Of a stretch of 64,000 bases of DNA, positions 17,310 through 43,144 are shown in pieces; the stretch's first letter is position 1, and each line of letters opens with the position of its first letter. Origin of the DNA: Shewanella sp. TC10 (GTDB lineage Bacteria; Pseudomonadota; Gammaproteobacteria; Enterobacterales; Shewanellaceae); assembly GCF_009663145.1 (NCBI RefSeq), contig NZ_VKHR01000016.1, forward strand, positions 23-64,022. Reading direction: 5' to 3'. Position numbers and translations under genes: made by a program. The notes under the pieces are model-generated. The model was not told where the DNA came from and searched no databases. It saw only the letters and a list, made by a program, of their open reading frames with translations.

Positions 17310-17804
17310 TTATAACTGAGTAATTTCAGCCCATTCATCATCTGATAATAACTTGTCTAAATCCACTAAGATCAATAGTTCGTTGTCACGGTTACTCACG
17401 CCTTGAATAAACTTAGCACTTTCTTCAGTTCCTACATTTGGTGCATTATCAATTTCTGAACGGCGTAAATATACAACCTCAGCGACACTATCAACCAAAA
17501 TACCAATGACTTGTTTTTCAGCTTCAATAATGACAATTCTTGATGAGTCATCGACTTCTGCAGCATCTAAACCAAAACGCGAACGGGTATCAATGACTGT
17601 AACTACGTTACCACGGAGATTAATAATACCAAGTACATATAAAGGAGCACCAGGAACAGGAGCAATTTCGGTATAGCGTAATACTTCCTGAACTTGCATT
17701 ACATTAATACCGTAAGTTTCATTGTCTAATTTAAATGTAACCCACTGTAGTACTACGTCTTCTTTACCAGCAGCAACTGCTGCAACATTTCTCGAGTCTG
17801 TCAT
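17310..17804 (-). CDS. cheW: Chemotaxis coupling protein CheW
   Basis: CheW links receptors to the CheA kinase in the polar array. The 164-aa protein is a single CheW domain of usual length, with VTFKLDNETYGINVMQVQEVLRY at the start of the fold, the GIINLRGNVVTVIDTRSRFG loop that contacts receptor and CheA P5, and the IGILVDSVAEVV strand. It follows parP by eight bases and is the last gene before the terminator, so it is co-transcribed with the flhA-to-cheW series. Confidence 0.95.
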   Translation of the reverse strand: MTDSRNVAAVAAGKEDVVLQWVTFKLDNETYGINVMQVQEVLRYTEIAPVPGAPLYVLGIINLRGNVVTVIDTRSRFGLDAAEVDDSSRIVIIEAEKQVIGILVDSVAEVVYLRRSEIDNAPNVGTEESAKFIQGVSNRDNELLILVDLDKLLSDDEWAEITQL

Positions 17805-17812
17805 AAATAACC

Positions 17813-18916
17813 TCAGTCAATCGAATCTTGACAACCTAATCCTGCATCTAGCATTTCGATAAGTGCTTGCACATTCAAAATACCACACATTTGTTCTTTT
17901 ACTACTCCAGCAAGCCAAGGGCGCTTACCAGGCTTTTCACGCCAATTAACGTGAGATTTATCTATTCTAACGGCATTAACCAAAGATTCGCATGCAAGTC
18001 CCCAGTCACTGTCTTCTAACATTACAAGGTATTGATAGTCGATACTGTCAGCCAATTCTTTAGTGTATTTCTCTGGCATCACCCAGCGGCAGCTATCAAC
18101 AACATTTACTTTCTGTTCACGACGAGTTTGTACACCTAAAAACCAATCAGGACGTCCAATTAAATGATTTATATGCTCTATTTTAACAATTCCACCCAAA
18201 CTTACCAATGGCACAGCTAATGTTAAACCCGCAACATTGAAAAATAAAACCTGAAACTCGTCATCTAACACATCTTGTAAATTACGCGTAATGCTCGGCG
18301 GTACCGCTGACTGTTGTGTGACAGGAGAGTCTTGCTCACTGTCGACTGCGCTAATACTCGTTTCAGCTTTATCTAGCTTTATATCGGCTGAAAATTGAGA
18401 TTCTTTATTATCAACAGAAGATAAAGTTTCAGTTTTTTCAGTCAGTTCTTTTTCAACCACAACTTGACCGAGTTGTTGTCTAACTTGCTGAGCTTTCGAT
18501 TTTATTTCTTGTTGAACTTGCTGCTGAGTTTTTATGGGTTCAGGCGTATTTTCTTCAGTCTTTAACGCTTTAACCTCATGCTCATGATGCTTAATCGACG
18601 ATTTAGAAACTGCCGATAACAATTTCGACAGTGCAGCTTTATCCACTTGAGGTTCGGCAAACTCTTTGTTTACCTCAGTATGCACTTTTTGCGATTCAAC
18701 TTGTGGGCTCTTAGCCGCAACAGTCGTTTTATCTTGAGTGCTCTTTAAGCTAGGTTTGCTAATTGTTTTGCTGTGTTGTTTTTTAAAGCTAACAGATTCA
18801 ACTTCTTTTTTTGTGCTATTAAGTTCATTTTCAGCAGTAACTGGAACCTCTTTTGAAGGCTCTTGTAATAAGACAGAGAAAAAATCAAAAACAGTCTCGT
18901 CAACCGATTTTGACAT
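17813..18916 (-). CDS. parP: ParP, CheW-domain polar array protein
   Basis: The 367-aa protein has a long charged, Gln/Lys/Glu-rich N-terminal region (about 1-215) and a C-terminal CheW-like domain (about 220-360) beginning FQVLFFNVAGLTLAVPL and containing IGRPDWFLGVQTRR. This is the layout of Vibrio ParP, in which the N-terminal part binds ParC and the C-terminal AIF domain enters the array and binds CheA, so that the array is held at the pole and shared between daughters. The reading frame overlaps the end of parC by 17 bases. The CheW-like domain differs from true CheW at the receptor-contact loop, as expected for ParP. Confidence 0.85.
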   Translation of the reverse strand: MSKSVDETVFDFFSVLLQEPSKEVPVTAENELNSTKKEVESVSFKKQHSKTISKPSLKSTQDKTTVAAKSPQVESQKVHTEVNKEFAEPQVDKAALSKLLSAVSKSSIKHHEHEVKALKTEENTPEPIKTQQQVQQEIKSKAQQVRQQLGQVVVEKELTEKTETLSSVDNKESQFSADIKLDKAETSISAVDSEQDSPVTQQSAVPPSITRNLQDVLDDEFQVLFFNVAGLTLAVPLVSLGGIVKIEHINHLIGRPDWFLGVQTRREQKVNVVDSCRWVMPEKYTKELADSIDYQYLVMLEDSDWGLACESLVNAVRIDKSHVNWREKPGKRPWLAGVVKEQMCGILNVQALIEMLDAGLGCQDSID

Positions 18917-19691
18917 GCTTAAACTCCTTCGCTAACAAAAAGTCTAATAATCGATTGTAAGCTTTCATGCCACGAGAACTTGGGAAAAAATGCGATACAG
19001 GAATGTGCGCTAAGCTGGCATCCCTAAACTTAGTATCCACAGGGATCACATCAGGCCATAAAGTATCAGGGTATGTTTCCTCTAACGACTTTAGTGCTGT
19101 TGGCGAGGCTTTAGTACGGCGATCAAACATGGTCGGTAAAATGGTGAAGCTGTAAGAAGTTTTTTTAGAACGTCCCATTAACCCCATGGTTTTTATCATT
19201 CTTTCTAAGCCCTTAATGGCTAAAAATTCAGTTTGTACCGGTATAACAATGTGCTGGCTAGCTGCTAGCGCATTCACCATCAACACGCCTAAAATCGGAG
19301 GACAATCAATGATGGCCACATCATATTTATCTTCAAGTAATGAGGTTACATTTCGCAGTACTAAGCCCATTCCTTCCTGATGGCCTAGCGCCCGATCAAG
19401 TGTTGCCAAGGCCATAGTGGCTGGAATCAAATCTAAACCATCAATAGATGTAGGAACGATGTGTTTTTCTACATCTTCTAAAGTTAAGTTTTTATGGGCG
19501 AGAAAAATATCATAAAGAGAACTAGGTACTTGCTCAGAATCAATACCAAGATAATAACCCAGTGACGCGTGAGGATCTGTGTCTATCATCAACACTCGCT
19601 GTCCACGTTTTACCAACGCACCAGCTAAGCTTGCAACTGTGGTCGTCTTACCCACTCCGCCTTTTTGATTAGCTATTGTCCATACTTTCAA
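18900..19691 (-). CDS. parC: ParC, ParA-like ATPase for polar chemotaxis arrays
   Basis: The protein (263 aa from TTG 19691) is a ParA/MinD-type ATPase with the deviant Walker A KGGVGKTT at 10-17 and the Walker B-like IIDCPP near 115-120. In Vibrio, ParC placed in the same position of the chemotaxis operon recruits ParP and CheW to the pole. TTG 19691 is preferred because GAGG lies six bases upstream and the family begins MKVW; a GTG at 19706 is the alternative and adds five residues. It overlaps parP. It is distinct from the replication ParA and from FlhG, which is also in the cluster. Confidence 0.87.
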   Translation of the reverse strand: MKVWTIANQKGGVGKTTTVASLAGALVKRGQRVLMIDTDPHASLGYYLGIDSEQVPSSLYDIFLAHKNLTLEDVEKHIVPTSIDGLDLIPATMALATLDRALGHQEGMGLVLRNVTSLLEDKYDVAIIDCPPILGVLMVNALAASQHIVIPVQTEFLAIKGLERMIKTMGLMGRSKKTSYSFTILPTMFDRRTKASPTALKSLEETYPDTLWPDVIPVDTKFRDASLAHIPVSHFFPSSRGMKAYNRLLDFLLAKEFKHVKIG

Positions 19692-19722
19692 ATCACGCCT
19701 CGTCACTCAATATTGTTTGCAC

Positions 19723-21385: not shown

Positions 21386-23659
21386 TTATTTCTTACTTTT
21401 GGCGTAATATTTTAATAAACCTGGCACATCTAGAATGAGTGCAATACCACCATCAGAAGTAATCGTCGCTCCCGCCATACCTGGCGTGCCTTGCAACATA
21501 CTGCCAAGAGGTTTAATAACCACCTCTTCTTGGCCAATGAGCGCATCGACAACAAAACCTATTTGCATTGTGCCAAGTTGTACAATGACAACATGTCCCT
21601 GCTTTTTATCACCATGGGTAAAGTTGGTTTTATTTCGATGTAACCATTGCTCTAAATAAAATAACGGTACGGCTTTATCACGCACAATAACGGTTAATTG
21701 ACCATCTACTACATTTGTTTTAGTTAGATCGAGATGGAAAATTTCATTAACGCTTGAAAGAGGTAAAGCAAATACTTGCTTAGCAACATCAACCATCAGA
21801 GTTGGCATAATTGCTAATGTGAGTGGAACTTTAATCTCTAAGATTGTCCCTTTGCCCTGAACCGAATCAATATGCACAGTACCATTTAACTGAGTGATAC
21901 GTGTTTTTACCACGTCCATACCCACGCCACGGCCTGAAATATCAGAGATTTCTACTTTGGTAGAAAATCCAGGAGCAAAAATTAAATTATAAGCTTCATT
22001 ATCAGTCATTCTGGCAGCGGAATCTTCATCCAACACACCACGACTAATTGCAATTTCCTTTAACTTACCCGCATCCATACCGGCGCCATCATCTTCAATT
22101 TTGAGAAGAATATGATCACCTTCTTGACTAGCAGATAAGGTAATAGTACCCGTTCTTGGTTTACCATTTGCTTCACGGGTTATTGGCATTTCAATGCCGT
22201 GATCCACAGAGTTTCTAACTAAATGGACTAATGGATCAGCAAGAGCTTCAACTAAGTTTTTATCAAGATCGGTGTCTTCACCAACCATGATTAAGTCAAT
22301 TTCTTTATTCAAAGTCCGCGCTAAATCGCGTACAACGCGTGGGAAGCGACCGAACACTTTCTTGATTGGCTGCATACGCGTTTTCATCACAGCGCCCTGA
22401 AGGTCCGCTGTAACCAAATCTAAATTGGCTAAAGCTTTAGACATCTCTTCATCATCGCGAGAAATGCCTAGGCTAACCAAGCGATTACGCACTAATACGA
22501 GCTCTCCAACCATATTCATAATTTGGTCTAATCGAGAGGTATCAACCCGAACTGTAGTCTCACCCTGAGGCATAGCATTTTGAGCTTTGGCAGGTTCAGC
22601 CTTTTGGGCAGCGGGTTTAGCTGCTGAAGCAGGTTTAGCTACTGGCGCTTTTGGTGCTTTAGCGGGCTCTGTAGATACTTTAGGTTCTGCTTTTGCAGCT
22701 TCTACAGGCTTAGTATTTTTAGGCGTACTAGGCTCGGGCTGACTGGGGCTGACAGGTGTTTGAGGTGCAGCAGGTGCTGGGGTCACTGCTGCTGGTGCAG
22801 AGCCTTTACCATGTAACTCATCAAGTAACTTTTCGAATTCATCATCAGTAATGTCGTCAGCATCGACTTTAGGCTCTTCAGCTATTGGGGCTGGCTCACT
22901 CGCTTTGGCTGAGGATTGGAATCCACCTGAACCATGAAGTTCATCAAGTAAGGCTTCAAACTCATCATCGGTGATTTCATCGCTGGCAGCGTTTTCGGTT
23001 ACTGACTCAGTCGCTGGTACGTTAACTTGTTCGCTAATCGGTTCTTCAATAATTGATGTCGGGCTTTTCCCTTGACCATGCAATGCATCAAGCAATGCTT
23101 CAAATTCACTTTCATCAATATCATCTATGCTGCCTGAAGTATCAGAAGAAGTTGTTTCAACTGTAACCTCTGGCTGTGACTCTATAACCGCTTCTTCAGT
23201 AATCGCTTCGATAAACTCTTCAACGGCTGCGGGTTCAGCGACAGGCTCAGATAATTCAGAGGGAAGTGGAGCACCAGAACTCAGCAATTTAAGCTTTTCT
23301 AGTAAATCAGGATCTGCATCATCTTGTTGCTGACCTTGCTGAGTCTGCTCAAACATGCTGTTGATAGCATCAACAGCTTGTAGAATGATATCCATTAACT
23401 CTGCGTTTACTTGACGCTTACCGGTTCTCAGTAAATCAAAGGTATTTTCTGCTTCATGACAAACATCGACCATCGGTCCCAAGCTTAAAAAACCTGCACC
23501 ACCTTTTACGGTGTGGAAACCTCTAAAAATAGCATTAAGTAAATCAGCATCATCAGGATTATTTTCAAGAGCGACGAGTTGCTCTTGTAGAAGCTCTAAA
23601 ATTTCACCAGCTTCAATCAAAAAGTCCTGGAGTATCTCTTCATCAACATCAAAAGACAT
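21386..23659 (-). CDS. cheA: Chemotaxis histidine kinase CheA with a repeat region in place of P2
   Basis: CheA (757 aa) autophosphorylates in response to receptors and passes phosphate to CheY and CheB. The P1 Hpt domain (1-110) has the phospho-histidine at 49 in FHTVKGGAGF. The P3 dimerisation helices lie at about 368-430, the P4 kinase with N box VRNSVDHGIE (481-490) and G boxes DDGAGMD and GRGVGMD at about 430-615, and the P5 CheW-like domain to the end. Residues 125-365 show no P2 fold. They hold three copies of an acidic motif of the form DDEFEALLDELHG (179-197, 227-245, 268-286) and an Ala/Pro/Lys-rich linker. In Vibrio this region includes the LID segment that binds ParP. Confidence 0.94.
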   Translation of the reverse strand: MSFDVDEEILQDFLIEAGEILELLQEQLVALENNPDDADLLNAIFRGFHTVKGGAGFLSLGPMVDVCHEAENTFDLLRTGKRQVNAELMDIILQAVDAINSMFEQTQQGQQQDDADPDLLEKLKLLSSGAPLPSELSEPVAEPAAVEEFIEAITEEAVIESQPEVTVETTSSDTSGSIDDIDESEFEALLDALHGQGKSPTSIIEEPISEQVNVPATESVTENAASDEITDDEFEALLDELHGSGGFQSSAKASEPAPIAEEPKVDADDITDDEFEKLLDELHGKGSAPAAVTPAPAAPQTPVSPSQPEPSTPKNTKPVEAAKAEPKVSTEPAKAPKAPVAKPASAAKPAAQKAEPAKAQNAMPQGETTVRVDTSRLDQIMNMVGELVLVRNRLVSLGISRDDEEMSKALANLDLVTADLQGAVMKTRMQPIKKVFGRFPRVVRDLARTLNKEIDLIMVGEDTDLDKNLVEALADPLVHLVRNSVDHGIEMPITREANGKPRTGTITLSASQEGDHILLKIEDDGAGMDAGKLKEIAISRGVLDEDSAARMTDNEAYNLIFAPGFSTKVEISDISGRGVGMDVVKTRITQLNGTVHIDSVQGKGTILEIKVPLTLAIMPTLMVDVAKQVFALPLSSVNEIFHLDLTKTNVVDGQLTVIVRDKAVPLFYLEQWLHRNKTNFTHGDKKQGHVVIVQLGTMQIGFVVDALIGQEEVVIKPLGSMLQGTPGMAGATITSDGGIALILDVPGLLKYYAKSKK
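22802..23125 (-). repeat. Three acidic peptide repeats inside CheA
   Basis: The encoded repeats are at residues 179-197, 227-245 and 268-286, each with (D)E-F-E-x-LLD-x-LHG-x-G. Copies two and three differ at few positions; copy one has SEFEALLDALHG. They are spaced about 41-48 residues apart with unrelated sequence between, so they look conserved by function rather than by recent duplication. Confidence 0.9.
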
Positions 23660-23675
23660 TAAATTTGACTCCTAA

Positions 23676-24413
23676 TTAGAAACCCAGACTTGATAGCAGA
23701 TCATCAACTTCATCTTGGCCAGTTACCACGTCTTCTCGTGTTTCAGCGTTCAAGATAGGACCTTCTGCTTCAATTTTATTTTCATCAACGACCCGTGCTG
23801 AGTCTGCTGCATTATCGCCAAAGATAGTTAGCATTGACACTAAACTGCTTTCTACTTCTCTGACTAAATCAATAACACGACGGATCATTTGCCCAGTTAA
23901 ATCTTGGAAATCTTGTGCCATCAAAATTTGATTAAGCAATTCCTTTAACCTACCTGAGTCATGCTCGCTATGAGACATGATGTGTTGAACGTCATGACAC
24001 AGAGACTTAAATTCGCTCAGAGCGATGTCTCTTCGCATCAATTTGTCCCACATTGGTGTGACCGATTGAATGTTATTAATTATTGTATCGGCCAAAGGTA
24101 AACATTCTTCAACTGCATCCATGGTTTTATTTGCAGCTTGCTCTGTCATATCAATGACAAAGTTCAATCTTTCTTTTGCGTCAGGTATTTCACTGTTAGC
24201 AAGTTCGGCTAATCGCGTATCAATTTGGAATTCATTTAATGAACTATGAAGTTGACGTGTCAACTTTCCGACTTCATCAAACAACTCCCGTTGAAGAGGA
24301 GCTGACAAGTCACGAATGACTTCATCAGCTTGTTCTTGTTGGCCATCTTCAAGTAATTTTACGAGTTGCTTGGCTTGCTCAAGATCAATTAACCCTGATG
24401 TGGCTGCCTGCAT
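23676..24413 (-). CDS. cheZ: CheY-P phosphatase CheZ
   Basis: CheZ dephosphorylates CheY-P to end the motor signal. The 245-aa protein is almost all helical and has the catalytic motif AQDFQDLTGQ, giving D171 and Q175 as equivalents of E. coli D143 and Q147. The C-terminal tail ends DEVDDLLSSLGF, the amphipathic CheY-binding peptide, after an acidic flexible linker. It lies between cheY and cheA, as in Vibrio, with short gaps. Confidence 0.95.
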   Translation of the reverse strand: MQAATSGLIDLEQAKQLVKLLEDGQQEQADEVIRDLSAPLQRELFDEVGKLTRQLHSSLNEFQIDTRLAELANSEIPDAKERLNFVIDMTEQAANKTMDAVEECLPLADTIINNIQSVTPMWDKLMRRDIALSEFKSLCHDVQHIMSHSEHDSGRLKELLNQILMAQDFQDLTGQMIRRVIDLVREVESSLVSMLTIFGDNAADSARVVDENKIEAEGPILNAETREDVVTGQDEVDDLLSSLGF

Positions 24414-24427
24414 AACTTATCCTTAGC

Positions 24428-24811
24428 TTATGCTAAACGCTCAAAGATTTTATCGAGTTTTTCTTTTAGGGTTGCAGCAGTAAATGGCTTAACAACATAA
24501 CCATTCACACCTGCTTGCGCTGCTGCAATAATTTGCTCACGTTTTGCTTCTGCAGTGACCATTAATACTGGTAAATGTTTTAATGAATCATCTGCACGAA
24601 TTGCCTTTAGTAAGTCAATTCCTTGCATTCCAGGCATGTTCCAGTCAGTTACAACAAAATCAAATTCGCTTTTTTGTAACATCGGTAACGCGGTCGAGCC
24701 ATCATCTGCTTCTTGGGTATTGTTAAATCCCAAGTCTCGCAACAAGTTCTTGATGATACGTCTCATTGTTGAAAAATCATCAACAATAAGAATCTTCATA
24801 TTCTTGTCCAA
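24428..24811 (-). CDS. cheY: Chemotaxis response regulator CheY
   Basis: CheY (127 aa) is a lone receiver domain that, when phosphorylated, binds FliM and changes motor rotation. The full active site is present: D11/D12, D56 in [10 protein letters not shown]86 and K108, with Y105 as the signalling aromatic. The ATG that starts MDKNMKIL has GGAAACC upstream. It follows fliA by 44 bases and precedes cheZ. Confidence 0.96.
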
Positions 24812-33927: not shown

Positions 33928-34956
33928 TTATAATTCTGAAATATCACGCGCTTTACCTTGTTTGCGTGTAATCAATTGTAATTCTGATTTAGCCGTTTCT
34001 GGGCGAGGAATTTTCTCACTGATCTTCAAGGCTAAATTTTCTCTCGATTTACCCAATTTACATCGATAAGTCGGTAAATCTTCTATTCGCATCATGATGT
34101 GTTCAGGCAGTTCAATTGGGATCACATCGCCCGCTTTAAACTCCATCACATCACGCAGTGTTACTTCATGTTCGATGATATTGGCATCAATACCCACTTG
34201 CACATCCATGATCTCGTCACGTAAGGCTTGACCCCAACGCATATCAGTATCTTGCTTATCACTCTGAACACCTGCATCAAGCAGTTCACGAATAGGCTCA
34301 ATCATCGAGTAAGGCATGGTGATATGGAAATCACCTCCACCACCATCAACTTCAATATGAAAAGAGTTAATCACGACCACTTCAGTTGGACTTACAATGT
34401 TAGCCATAGCAGGGTTAACTTCTGAGTCTAAATATTCAAACTCAACATCCATCACTGGAGCCCAAGCATCTTTGTAATCTTCAAATATGATCTTTAGCAG
34501 TAATTGAACGATGCGTCGCTCTGTTGGTGTAAATTCGCGGCCTTCGATTTTTGCGTGAAAGCGGCCATCACCACCAAAAAAGTTATCAACTAAGATAAAT
34601 ACTAAACGCGCTTCCATGGTGATAAGCGCAGTCCCTTTAAGTGGGCTAAAGCGCACCATATTCAAGCTTGTGGGAACAAATAGGGTATGAACATACTCGC
34701 CGAACTTGAGCATCTGTACGCCGTTAATTGACACTTCCGCAGCTCGGCGCATCATATTGAACATGCTTATTCTTAAATGGCGTGCAAAACGTTCGTTGAC
34801 AATTTCAAGCGTTGGCATTCGGCCACGAACGATTCTATCTTGAGATGAGAAATCATATACACGGGCATCATCATTTTCGCTAATGTCATCTTCATCAACA
34901 TCATCGACCCCATGCAGTAGCGCATCAATTTCGTCTTGGCTTAATAAATCACTCAC
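33928..34956 (-). CDS. fliM: Flagellar motor switch protein FliM
   Basis: FliM (342 aa) receives CheY-P and sets the direction of rotation. Its N-terminal peptide LSQDEIDALLHG (residues 5-16) is the CheY-P docking site. The middle CheC-like domain (about 45-230) and the C-terminal SpoA domain that joins FliN (about 250-330) follow. The start is a GTG with AAGGTG upstream. The docking peptide is strikingly like the CheA repeats at 22802-23125. Confidence 0.95.
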   Translation of the reverse strand: MSDLLSQDEIDALLHGVDDVDEDDISENDDARVYDFSSQDRIVRGRMPTLEIVNERFARHLRISMFNMMRRAAEVSINGVQMLKFGEYVHTLFVPTSLNMVRFSPLKGTALITMEARLVFILVDNFFGGDGRFHAKIEGREFTPTERRIVQLLLKIIFEDYKDAWAPVMDVEFEYLDSEVNPAMANIVSPTEVVVINSFHIEVDGGGGDFHITMPYSMIEPIRELLDAGVQSDKQDTDMRWGQALRDEIMDVQVGIDANIIEHEVTLRDVMEFKAGDVIPIELPEHIMMRIEDLPTYRCKLGKSRENLALKISEKIPRPETAKSELQLITRKQGKARDISEL

Positions 34957-40413: not shown

Positions 40414-41460
40414 TTACAAGAACTCTTCACCGCCACCACCACCTAGCATAATTTCACCACTATCACTTAAGCGACGTGCAATAGCGAGGATTTCTTTTTG
40501 GGCAACTTCAACTTCACTAATACGTATTGGCCCCATGGCTTCAAGATCATCGCGAAGTAACTCACCAGCTCGTTTAGACATATTACCGATGATTTTATCT
40601 GACAATTGGTCATCAGCACCTTTTAGTGCTTTCATCAGTACATCTTGCTGTACTTCTCGAAGTAGTACTTGTACACCACGGTCATCAACATCAATTAAGT
40701 TTTCAAATACAAACATAAGATCTTGAATTTGCTGCGCCATTTCCTCATCAGACTCACGCATCGTCTCCATAATCTGGCTTTCAACGCCTGTATCTAAGAA
40801 GTTCATAATATTAGCAGCAGCTTTAAGTCCGCCCATTTTGGCAGCTTGTGCACCGCCTTGGCCAGCAAACTGTTTCTCCATAATATCATTCAATTCTTGT
40901 AATGCTGCTGGTTGAACTTCTTCTAAATTGGCGATACGCATCATTAAATCAAGTCGAGTATTTTCAGGGAACTGACTGAAAATTTCAGCAGCTTGATCAG
41001 GCTCTAAATAGGATAGAACAATGGTCTGAATTTGCGGATGTTCGTTTTGAATAATAGTTGCAACTTGGCGTGCGTCCATCCACTTCAACGAGTCTAGACC
41101 TTTAGCACCACTACCCATGATAATTTGTTCGATTAAATTACCGGCTTTATCTTCACCCAGCGCGGCGGTTAATGCTTTTCTGACGAACTCTTCACTGTTA
41201 AAACCAATTGATGAGAACTTTTGGATTTCTTCAAGAAAAAGCTTATGAACTCCAATGACTTTTTCTTGACCAAAATCTTCCATGGCGGCCATGGACATAC
41301 CCACTTTTTGAACCTGTTTAGGTTCTAAATGTTTTAGTATTGAAGCCGCATCAGCTTCGCTAAGGCTCAAGAGTAAAATAGCGGTTTTTTCAGTTCCCGT
41401 TAAATCATCTGGGTTGAACCCTTTGGTAGCCTCTGCTACCGAAACTTCATCATTTGCCAT
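40414..41460 (-). CDS. fliG: Flagellar motor switch protein FliG
   Basis: FliG (348 aa) joins the MS ring to the C-ring and interacts with the stator. The N-terminal FliF-binding domain, the middle domain with the EHPQ motif (NEHPQIQTIVLSYLEPDQAAEI) and the C-terminal torque domain with the charged helix LLREVQQDVLMKALKGADDQL are all in order. The reading frame overlaps the end of fliF by 11 bases. The C-terminus is Gly-rich then EEFL. Confidence 0.96.
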   Translation of the reverse strand: MANDEVSVAEATKGFNPDDLTGTEKTAILLLSLSEADAASILKHLEPKQVQKVGMSMAAMEDFGQEKVIGVHKLFLEEIQKFSSIGFNSEEFVRKALTAALGEDKAGNLIEQIIMGSGAKGLDSLKWMDARQVATIIQNEHPQIQTIVLSYLEPDQAAEIFSQFPENTRLDLMMRIANLEEVQPAALQELNDIMEKQFAGQGGAQAAKMGGLKAAANIMNFLDTGVESQIMETMRESDEEMAQQIQDLMFVFENLIDVDDRGVQVLLREVQQDVLMKALKGADDQLSDKIIGNMSKRAGELLRDDLEAMGPIRISEVEVAQKEILAIARRLSDSGEIMLGGGGGEEFL

Positions 41461-43144
41461 CGTCTTGTAACCAACTCTTAATTACTTGGGTAGAAAGTTC
41501 AGGTTCATTTGCCACTAAAGCCCGAATTGATTTAATCATATCATCATCTTTATGCAGATTTGGGATCTGAATGGAACCATCATCAGCATAACTGTAATCT
41601 GCCTCCTGCGTATTCAACATACCCAGAGTATCAGCAGCGTACTGGTCTTCAATCTCAGCTAATTCATGGCCTAAACGAGCCTCTTCTGGCATTTCAATTT
41701 CATTGGTTTTCAGCAGTTTATTCAACATTGGTCTGATAACAAATAGAATTAACACTAAGACTAATAATGCACCTAAAATGAGTCTTACTGCACGCCAAAA
41801 CCAAGGTTGCTCCCATAGCTCAGGCTCAGGTAATGCTTCGATTAATTGATCCATAAATGGCACAGTTACCACTTCTAAAGTATCACCACGCTGACTTGTG
41901 AACCCCATAGCACCTTCAAGTAATCGACGAATATTCGTCAGCTCTTGCTCGGTTCTTGGCACTCTTGTGACCACACCATTTTCATCAACCGCGCCAGGTT
42001 TGTAATCAATCGCCACAGAAACACTGACTCGTCTTACTTGACCCACTTGCTGACGGGTGTGACTGATTGTGGTGTCTAACTCAAAGTTACGTGTTGCTTC
42101 ACGGTGACTGTCACCATTTACTGAAGTTGTTTCTGCTTCACCAGCTGCTTGGGGGATATCTGATTCCATTGGTGGCTGATTCGACAACGCCCCAGGGATC
42201 CCGCCCATGGATTGACCTGATGAATTACGCTCAATAGTCATTTCACTACGAATAGCCGGTAAATCAGGTGAAAATCGTTTTGCAGTTTGTTCAACCGCGG
42301 TGAAATCCATATTCACATCGACCTGAGAGGTAAAGTTTTCAGGTCCTAAAATAGGCATTAGAATTGATTCGACTTTGTTACGATATTCAGCTTCTTTTTG
42401 CTGAACTAACTCTTGTTCACGACGTGCTCTAGATGATGCTGCATCTTGGCTACCTGAGTTAAGTAAACGTCCATTTGAATCTGTTACGGTAACACGTGTA
42501 GGGTCTAAACCTTGTACTGCTGAAGCCACAATATCGACGATTGAATCGATTTCTTCTTGCCCTAAACTGCCACGACGAACGCTAACAACAACTGTTGCAC
42601 TCGGTTTTGATTTATTACGTGCGAACACATTTTCTTTTGGCAGGGCTAAAATCACTTTTGCACGGGTTACGCTTTTTAACTCTTCAATTACTCTGGCTAA
42701 GTTAATTTCTTGGCTTTGCTTTAATCGTGCTTGCTCCATACGTTGGCTCACACCAAAACCACTATCTTTGCTTAGATAATCTGTTGGCTGACTTGAGGCT
42801 TCAACGCCTGCACGACCTAATAATAATTTTACATTTTGATATTTGTCTTCTGGAATGCTGACGACATCGCCAGAAATCTTATAAGCGATTTTATTTTTAT
42901 CCAAAACGTCCAACACTTGGATCATTTCGTTTGTTTCCATTTGACCTAACGGTCTGTACTCAGGCTCTTGTGCCCACATCATCATAAATACAGCCAATAC
43001 TAAACAAACGGCTAATGCCAGAATCATAGTAATTTGACGCATAAAATCAGCACTACCAAAAGAACTCATCAAACCAGGTTTATTTTCCTGCTGAATCCCT
43101 GTGCTACTAGCGGTATCTGAATCTAATACGAGATCTGTACTCAC
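41450..43144 (-). CDS. fliF: Flagellar MS-ring protein FliF
   Basis: FliF (564 aa) forms the MS ring in the inner membrane. It has two membrane segments (about 37-57 and 448-468), a large periplasmic ring-building part with YscJ/FliF-type domains (MNEMIQVLDVLDKNKI-type segment early on, and QEINLARVIEELKSVTRAKV), and a cytoplasmic C-terminus that binds FliG. The start is a GTG. It lies 34 bases after fliE. Confidence 0.95.
   Translation of the reverse strand: MSTDLVLDSDTASSTGIQQENKPGLMSSFGSADFMRQITMILALAVCLVLAVFMMMWAQEPEYRPLGQMETNEMIQVLDVLDKNKIAYKISGDVVSIPEDKYQNVKLLLGRAGVEASSQPTDYLSKDSGFGVSQRMEQARLKQSQEINLARVIEELKSVTRAKVILALPKENVFARNKSKPSATVVVSVRRGSLGQEEIDSIVDIVASAVQGLDPTRVTVTDSNGRLLNSGSQDAASSRARREQELVQQKEAEYRNKVESILMPILGPENFTSQVDVNMDFTAVEQTAKRFSPDLPAIRSEMTIERNSSGQSMGGIPGALSNQPPMESDIPQAAGEAETTSVNGDSHREATRNFELDTTISHTRQQVGQVRRVSVSVAIDYKPGAVDENGVVTRVPRTEQELTNIRRLLEGAMGFTSQRGDTLEVVTVPFMDQLIEALPEPELWEQPWFWRAVRLILGALLVLVLILFVIRPMLNKLLKTNEIEMPEEARLGHELAEIEDQYAADTLGMLNTQEADYSYADDGSIQIPNLHKDDDMIKSIRALVANEPELSTQVIKSWLQDDGK

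Follow-up and report, generated by a model that had tools for sequence, protein, structure and literature searches.

The CheA kinase of Escherichia coli contains a folded P2 domain between its P1 and P3 domains, and P2 is part of the textbook picture of CheA. In addition, the E. coli variant CheA-short recruits CheZ. A P2 domain has also been assumed, in excerpts of three papers, for one CheA each from Vibrio, Pseudomonas and Laribacter (PMC7534058, PMC11978298, PMC3180692). As far as excerpts of two papers go, certain CheAs have an extra domain, the LID, which is located between P2 and P3, is bound by the AIF domain of ParP and is confined to CheAs that occur alongside ParC and ParP (PMC7534058, PMC5706961). 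Here, these systems are compared with the CheA encoded in a window of Shewanella sp. TC10, the window being the whole stretch of 64,000 nucleotides that was analysed. A previous sequence-only reading of this window had pointed to three repeats in this CheA and had proposed that they dock CheY in the place of P2, with the LID as the alternative.

CheA Domain Organization and the Search for P2

The che genes of the window are arranged in the order cheY, cheZ, cheA, cheB, a small ORF, parC, parP and cheW. The cheA gene (21386..23659, minus strand) encodes a protein consisting of P1 (Hpt), a linker and P3-P4-P5. All of the domains that identify a CheA kinase were found with Pfam, namely the Hpt domain (residues 8-100), the dimerisation domain (H-kinase_dim, 368-427), the ATPase domain (HATPase_c, 475-614) and the CheW-like domain (621-750). 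The CheAs of named Shewanella share 70-77% identity with the window CheA in their best segments. The P1-P3 linker comprises about 270 residues of low complexity and is enriched in A, E, P and S between residues 126 and 365.

Neither of the two Pfam P2 models (PF09078 and PF07194) matches the window CheA, up to an E-value of 0.1. The statement of the sequence-only reading that no P2 is present between the Hpt domain and the dimerisation helices is thereby upheld, and this protein falls outside the P2-containing CheAs, when these are defined by a match of the P1-P3 region to a P2 profile. PF09078 gave zero matches across the whole genome of the strain (4.99 Mb), and among the Pfam families matched at an E-value of 0.01 in the 47 CheA-bearing rows of A5, a P2 model is absent. 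The Pfam P2 models may overlook divergent P2 domains; in L220, a CheA of a second type has, by eye, a folded-looking domain at the place of P2, yet this domain has no Pfam match. Among 276 sampled genomes of the class, PF09078 matched in two and PF07194 in one. The two genomes with a PF09078 match are outside the set of 106 genomes that carry the repeat motif, and in the third (G180), P2 is encoded in a different ORF on a different contig; with just three P2 matches among 276 genomes, little is said about whether P2 and the motif are mutually exclusive. The repeats share the P1-P3 position with P2, and a shared role is proposed below, whereas the window CheA has short repeats at this place instead of a fold.

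Tandem Repeats in the P1-P3 Linker

The linker of the window CheA contains three copies of the motif I-[TS]-x-x-E-F-E-x-L-L-D-x-L-H-G in units of 19 residues, all encoded on the minus strand. Repeat 1 (IDESEFEALLDALHGQGKS) is located at 23063..23119 (residues 181-199), repeat 2 (ITDDEFEALLDELHGSGGF) at 22919..22975 (residues 229-247) and repeat 3 (ITDDEFEKLLDELHGKGSA) at 22796..22852 (residues 270-288). Three repeats had been reported from the sequence alone at 22802-23125, which is correct, with the third unit running six bases beyond that range. The repeat sequence that was given then fits copies 2 and 3 (DDEFEALLDELHG and DDEFEKLLDELHG) but not copy 1, which actually reads ESEFEALLDALHG.

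When nine CheAs are aligned without the use of a pattern, the units are the only conserved parts of a hypervariable, poorly alignable linker, and every one of the three units has F, L-L, D and G in all nine sequences. A repeat profile (A2), made of 30 units from relatives and the window CheA, found just the three CheA copies (E-values of 1e-8 to 1e-11) in the six frames of the 4.99 Mb genome, and one further match, at an E-value of 0.77, in another ORF that looks like an exonuclease. A pattern scan of 106 CheAs, which were parsed out of 110 loci (L029, L076, L078 and L086 are without a full CheA frame), resulted in 320 units, 216 of which are distinct. Because the pattern itself requires F, D and G, its evidence sits in the remaining columns: among the 216 distinct units, I is found before the core in 186, E before F in 209, the two residues of L-L in 211 and 215, and H in 213.

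The motif was detected in 106 of the 276 class genomes at an E-value of 0.01, with one to four matches per genome, and among the matches listed, most sit in CheA-sized ORFs. In a phylum sample, the motif was detected in 54 of 299 genomes at an E-value of 0.001, none of them more distant than the same class, and among the matches listed for this sample, it is absent from all 14 genomes of family f173. The repeats are real, specific and widespread. At one locus (L157, genome G240), a 119-aa open frame with two motif copies is present at the expected place of cheA, and this cheA looks broken or misassembled.

Weak matches to the SHOCT profile (PF09851) were observed over the units in 28 of 52 A5 members at an E-value of 0.01, and the ITxxEF start also resembles this family as well as a general helix cap. 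However, the window CheA scores below the Pfam gathering cut-off (18.3 vs 27), and the CheA units differ from SHOCT in being internal and tandem and in having LLDxLHG. The CheA of L205 (genome G210) passes the SHOCT cut-off (32.6 vs 27), and its linker contains three longer repeats around LPEGVDPDGEITDDEFEALLNQRD. A PDB sequence search with the linker gave zero matches, and searches of open-licence papers brought up neither the motif letters nor FliM-like or docking motifs in CheA.

Likeness to the FliM and CheZ Peptides

The sequence-only reading had compared the repeats with two other peptides of the window, and it gave both of them as they stand in the sequence. These are the N-terminal peptide of FliM (LSQDEIDALLHG; 34909..34944, minus strand, residues 5-16, in the protein identified as FliM by PF02154) and the C-terminal tail of CheZ (TGQDEVDDLLSSLGF; 23679..23723, minus strand, residues 231-245, in the protein identified as CheZ by PF04344). 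The aligned cores are ITDDEFEALL in CheA, LSQDEIDALL in FliM and TGQDEVDDLL in CheZ. The CheA repeats and the FliM peptide have the core [LI]-[ST]-x-[DE]-E-[IFV]-[DE]-x-L-L in common and, probably, one ligand, the cell's flagellar CheY, whereas the CheA copies are internal and tandem, with F replacing I and with a D-x-L-H-G extension. The CheZ tail shares D-E-hydrophobic-D-x-L-L-x-x-L with the repeats but is a single, C-terminal site with a weaker sequence likeness.

The 27,919 10-mers of the window (drawn from frames of 60 aa or more) were scored with a smoothed CheA-core profile. Outside CheA, the highest score (15.2) belongs to the FliM peptide; the CheZ tail has rank 27. Of 20,000 column shuffles, 1 reached the score of FliM and 102 reached that of CheZ. 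Among 439,896 10-mers from the loci of 80 relatives, the FliM score is attained by CheA-repeat sequences only; 3 of the 240 such 10-mers are in frames not labelled CheA, though their letters are those of CheA repeats. A profile was also made of 23 FliM peptides, these being the frames caught by a pattern in 28 loci (FliM is present in 27 of the 28 genomes, and the pattern missed at least L172 and L186, which have LSQDEVDALL). Under this profile, FliM has rank 1 in the window, the CheZ tail rank 3 and the CheA repeats ranks 4, 6 and 7. The second rank is taken by LGQEEIDSIV of FliF (41450-43144, minus strand), which sits inside a folded domain and was regarded as a chance match, not as a docking peptide. 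With a CheZ-tail profile made from 96 of 97 tails, the ranks of the CheA repeats among the 27,919 10-mers are as low as 52, 72 and 88, and the A2 HMMER profile detected neither FliM nor CheZ in the strain's own genome at an E-value of 10.

By the profile ranks and the shuffles, the FliM-like core of the CheA repeats stands above background, and, judged from the sequences, the likeness is beyond chance, although a general helix N-cap may account for some of it. Together with the HMMER result, these data indicate a clear likeness to FliM and a modest one to CheZ. The proposal of one motif common to CheA, FliM and CheZ thus stands for FliM and is weaker for CheZ, and the low ranks under the CheZ-tail profile also weaken the CheZ leg of the case for CheY docking.

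The CheW of the window ends in LSDDEWAEITQL (17313-17348, minus strand), a sequence with a high score under the CheA-repeat profile. Among the CheW frames from named relatives, 48 of 75 have a similar acidic-E-W C-terminus, and this C-terminus is possibly a further docking peptide, or a chance likeness.

ParC, ParP and the LID

The window encodes a ParC-like ParA ATPase (18900..19706, minus strand; AAA_31/ParA-type) and a ParP-like protein with a CheW-like C-terminal domain (17813..18916, minus strand; CheW domain at residues 222-354), which we take to be ParC and ParP from the locus order. These proteins would be the partners of the repeats if the repeats were the LID described in Vibrio. In that case, the repeats would attach to the ParP AIF domain and anchor the arrays at the pole, and P1 would phosphorylate CheY without a docking site. 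The position agrees with this, as the repeats lie in the P1-P3 linker and the LID is placed between P2 and P3, with ParC and ParP always alongside, in the description cited above (PMC7534058, PMC5706961). Also, in L237 (family f174), which has ParC- and ParP-like genes, the three repeats are, by eye, the sole conserved element of the linker, so that the LID may overlap the repeats.

The ParP profile matches 92 of the 276 class genomes. The motif and ParP are found together in 84 genomes, the motif only in 22, ParP only in 8 and neither in 162 (odds ratio of 77). This co-occurrence, in 84 of the 106 motif-bearing genomes, means that the repeats may overlap a ParP-binding LID, but shared inheritance of one che locus may account for it as well. 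Among the 92 ParP-positive genomes, 8 are motif-negative. The motif is absent at an E-value of 1 from G228, the contig of which ends inside cheA, and from G244, where parC and parP lie without cheA on a 3.9-kb contig. The ParP-positive G312 has motif matches at an E-value of 0.15 or worse only, and G091, G103, G211, G223 and G242 have weak ParP matches only (E-values of 1e-4 to 1e-6).

A ParC-profile search of 17 of the 22 motif-only genomes found ParC at 299 bits or above in 10 of them and nothing above 198 bits in the other seven; the second-best ParA-like matches in ParC-positive genomes climb to 190 bits. As for the remaining five motif-only genomes, a ParC gene is present at the locus in G167, G180, G227 and G272, and G277 ends before it. 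The seven genomes with no ParP match at an E-value of 0.001 and a best ParC-profile match of at most 198 bits belong to five families: G040 (f18), G059 and G190 (f37), G063 and G192 (f41), G175 (f153) and G210 (f66). Since the ParP profile overlooks some diverged ParPs that adjoin ParC genes, the absence of ParP in the seven rests mainly on ParC and on the five loci that were read (G040, G059, G175, G190 and G192). The contig of G063 ends in cheB. In G040, G059, G190 and G192, the locus runs from cheA past cheB to cheW with parC and parP absent, and in G175, cheA is followed by cheW.

No CheZ over the cut-off was found in the genomes of G059 and G190, which are 100 and 98% complete. Both retain CheY, the FliM peptide LSQDEIDALLSG and one full CheA motif, FSDAEFEALLDRLHGKG. 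Their flagellar che loci (L146 and L154, respectively) lack cheZ, parC and parP, and in both, cheY is located directly before cheA, in L154 in the same frame. G210 has three copies of the FliM-like half alone, ITDDEFEALLNQRD, and its CheZ is present. The motif in the seven genomes should serve something besides ParP and, in G059 and G190, also something besides CheZ. CheY is the remaining named partner that is obliged to meet CheA; CheB or another ubiquitous partner may also be bound. Retention of the motif without ParC and ParP, and in two genomes also without CheZ, favours CheY docking, possibly plus a ParP-related role.

Compared with the Vibrio LID as it has been described, the repeats are alike in their linker position and in their frequent company of ParP, but they differ in that they also occur without ParC and ParP matches, in 7 of the 106 motif-bearing genomes (best ParC match at most 198 bits, against at least 299 bits for true ParC). 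Binding to ParP as the sole role, which would also leave the FliM likeness unexplained, is therefore unlikely, and of the alternative raised in the sequence-only reading, a possible additional role is what is left. Such a double use, in which the same peptides would bind CheY and, where ParP exists, ParP, and in which array tethering could couple to CheY loading, is in our view rather doubtful. It would bring together the ParP correlation, the retention of the motif without ParP and the FliM likeness, and in some copies the LHG tail is missing while the FliM-like half is kept; however, G059 and G190 keep the LHG tail without ParP, which leaves the idea of one half for CheY and the other for ParP unsupported. 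A role of the repeats in recruiting CheZ, in the manner of CheA-short, or in contacting CheB, CheW or another region of CheA is quite improbable: CheZ, CheB and CheW are all encoded in the che locus of the window, but the motif persists in G059 and G190 with no CheZ over the cut-off.

CheY and Structure Prediction

The proposed ligand of the repeats, CheY, is encoded at 24428..24811 (minus strand). It is very similar to CheY3 of V. cholerae (3to5). In favour of docking, its C-terminal stretch, which we take to carry alpha4-beta5-alpha5, closely resembles the corresponding part of the CheY in the 2fka series of structures, presumably complexes with CheZ peptides, with K replacing E of TLEEKL.

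Two AlphaFold models were made. In model 1, CheY and CheA of L154 were joined in one chain, with a TGA read through (code 4) and with 5 CheY and 46 CheA rows. The motif is predicted as a helix at residues 380-390, and the block of residues 381-390 has a mean pLDDT of 80, with the other linker blocks at 34-50. In model 2, with CheA alone and the same CheA rows, the helix is at residues 205-215, and the blocks 201-210 and 211-220 have means of 70 and 60. The motif helix has a similar confidence whether or not CheY is part of the chain. The pLDDT blocks are offset and include residues on either side of the helix, so these values do not allow a gain from CheY to be claimed, and docking was not seen. 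The CheY part of model 1 is roughly modelled, with a TM of about 0.77 vs solved CheYs. The predictions support a helix-forming motif within a disordered linker.

According to an excerpt of a further paper, K117 in the FliM-contacting helix changed to E when F6-type CheYs came to serve F7 CheAs (PMC7184735). This change is in line with an altered docking partner, short of proof.

Proposed Role of the Repeats

CheY docking is the best supported reading of the repeats and, from the sequence comparisons, is moderately likely. Specifically, the repeats are probably short linear CheY-docking motifs at the place of a folded P2. At the position that P2 has in the CheA of E. coli, they would dock CheY and perhaps also the receiver of CheB. 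Each repeat would probably form a short capped helix on the alpha4-beta5-alpha5 face of CheY, like the N-terminal peptide of FliM. A flexible linker with one to four such copies could hold several CheY molecules near P1 for phosphotransfer, after which phospho-CheY would move to the same type of peptide on FliM at the motor and on CheZ, the phosphatase. We infer the binding of CheY, the face that is bound and the effect on phosphotransfer.

The Second CheA and Wider Implications

The strain has a second CheA (L192:7150-9000, minus strand; G000:C53), which is adjoined by a receiver-domain ORF. Its linker contains EGFGFFDDEP, EQGFGFFETPP and SKGYGLFDESD, around G-[FY]-G-[FL]-F, and a Pfam P2 match is absent in both of the scanned CheAs with a GFGFF-type motif (L192 and L231). 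By eye, similar GFGFF-type arrays of two to four copies are present in L194, L225, L226, L231 and L232, and a folded-looking stretch is found instead in L193, L195, L220-L224, L227-L230 and L233-L236. Given these arrays, replacing P2 by short motifs in tandem may be a general solution for which more than one code exists.

Tentatively, and on balance with some doubt, many gammaproteobacterial flagellar CheAs without P2 might catch CheY by the peptide code of FliM and CheZ. The kinase, the motor and the phosphatase would then compete for it, and the GFGFF code of the second CheA, for its own response regulator, would keep the pathways apart. If FliM-like tethering in many flagellar CheAs is true, models of phosphotransfer and of the competition between CheY and CheB would change, and so would the view of pathway separation in cells with multiple CheAs. 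As their natural copy number varies from one to four, the repeats provide a simple experimental handle.
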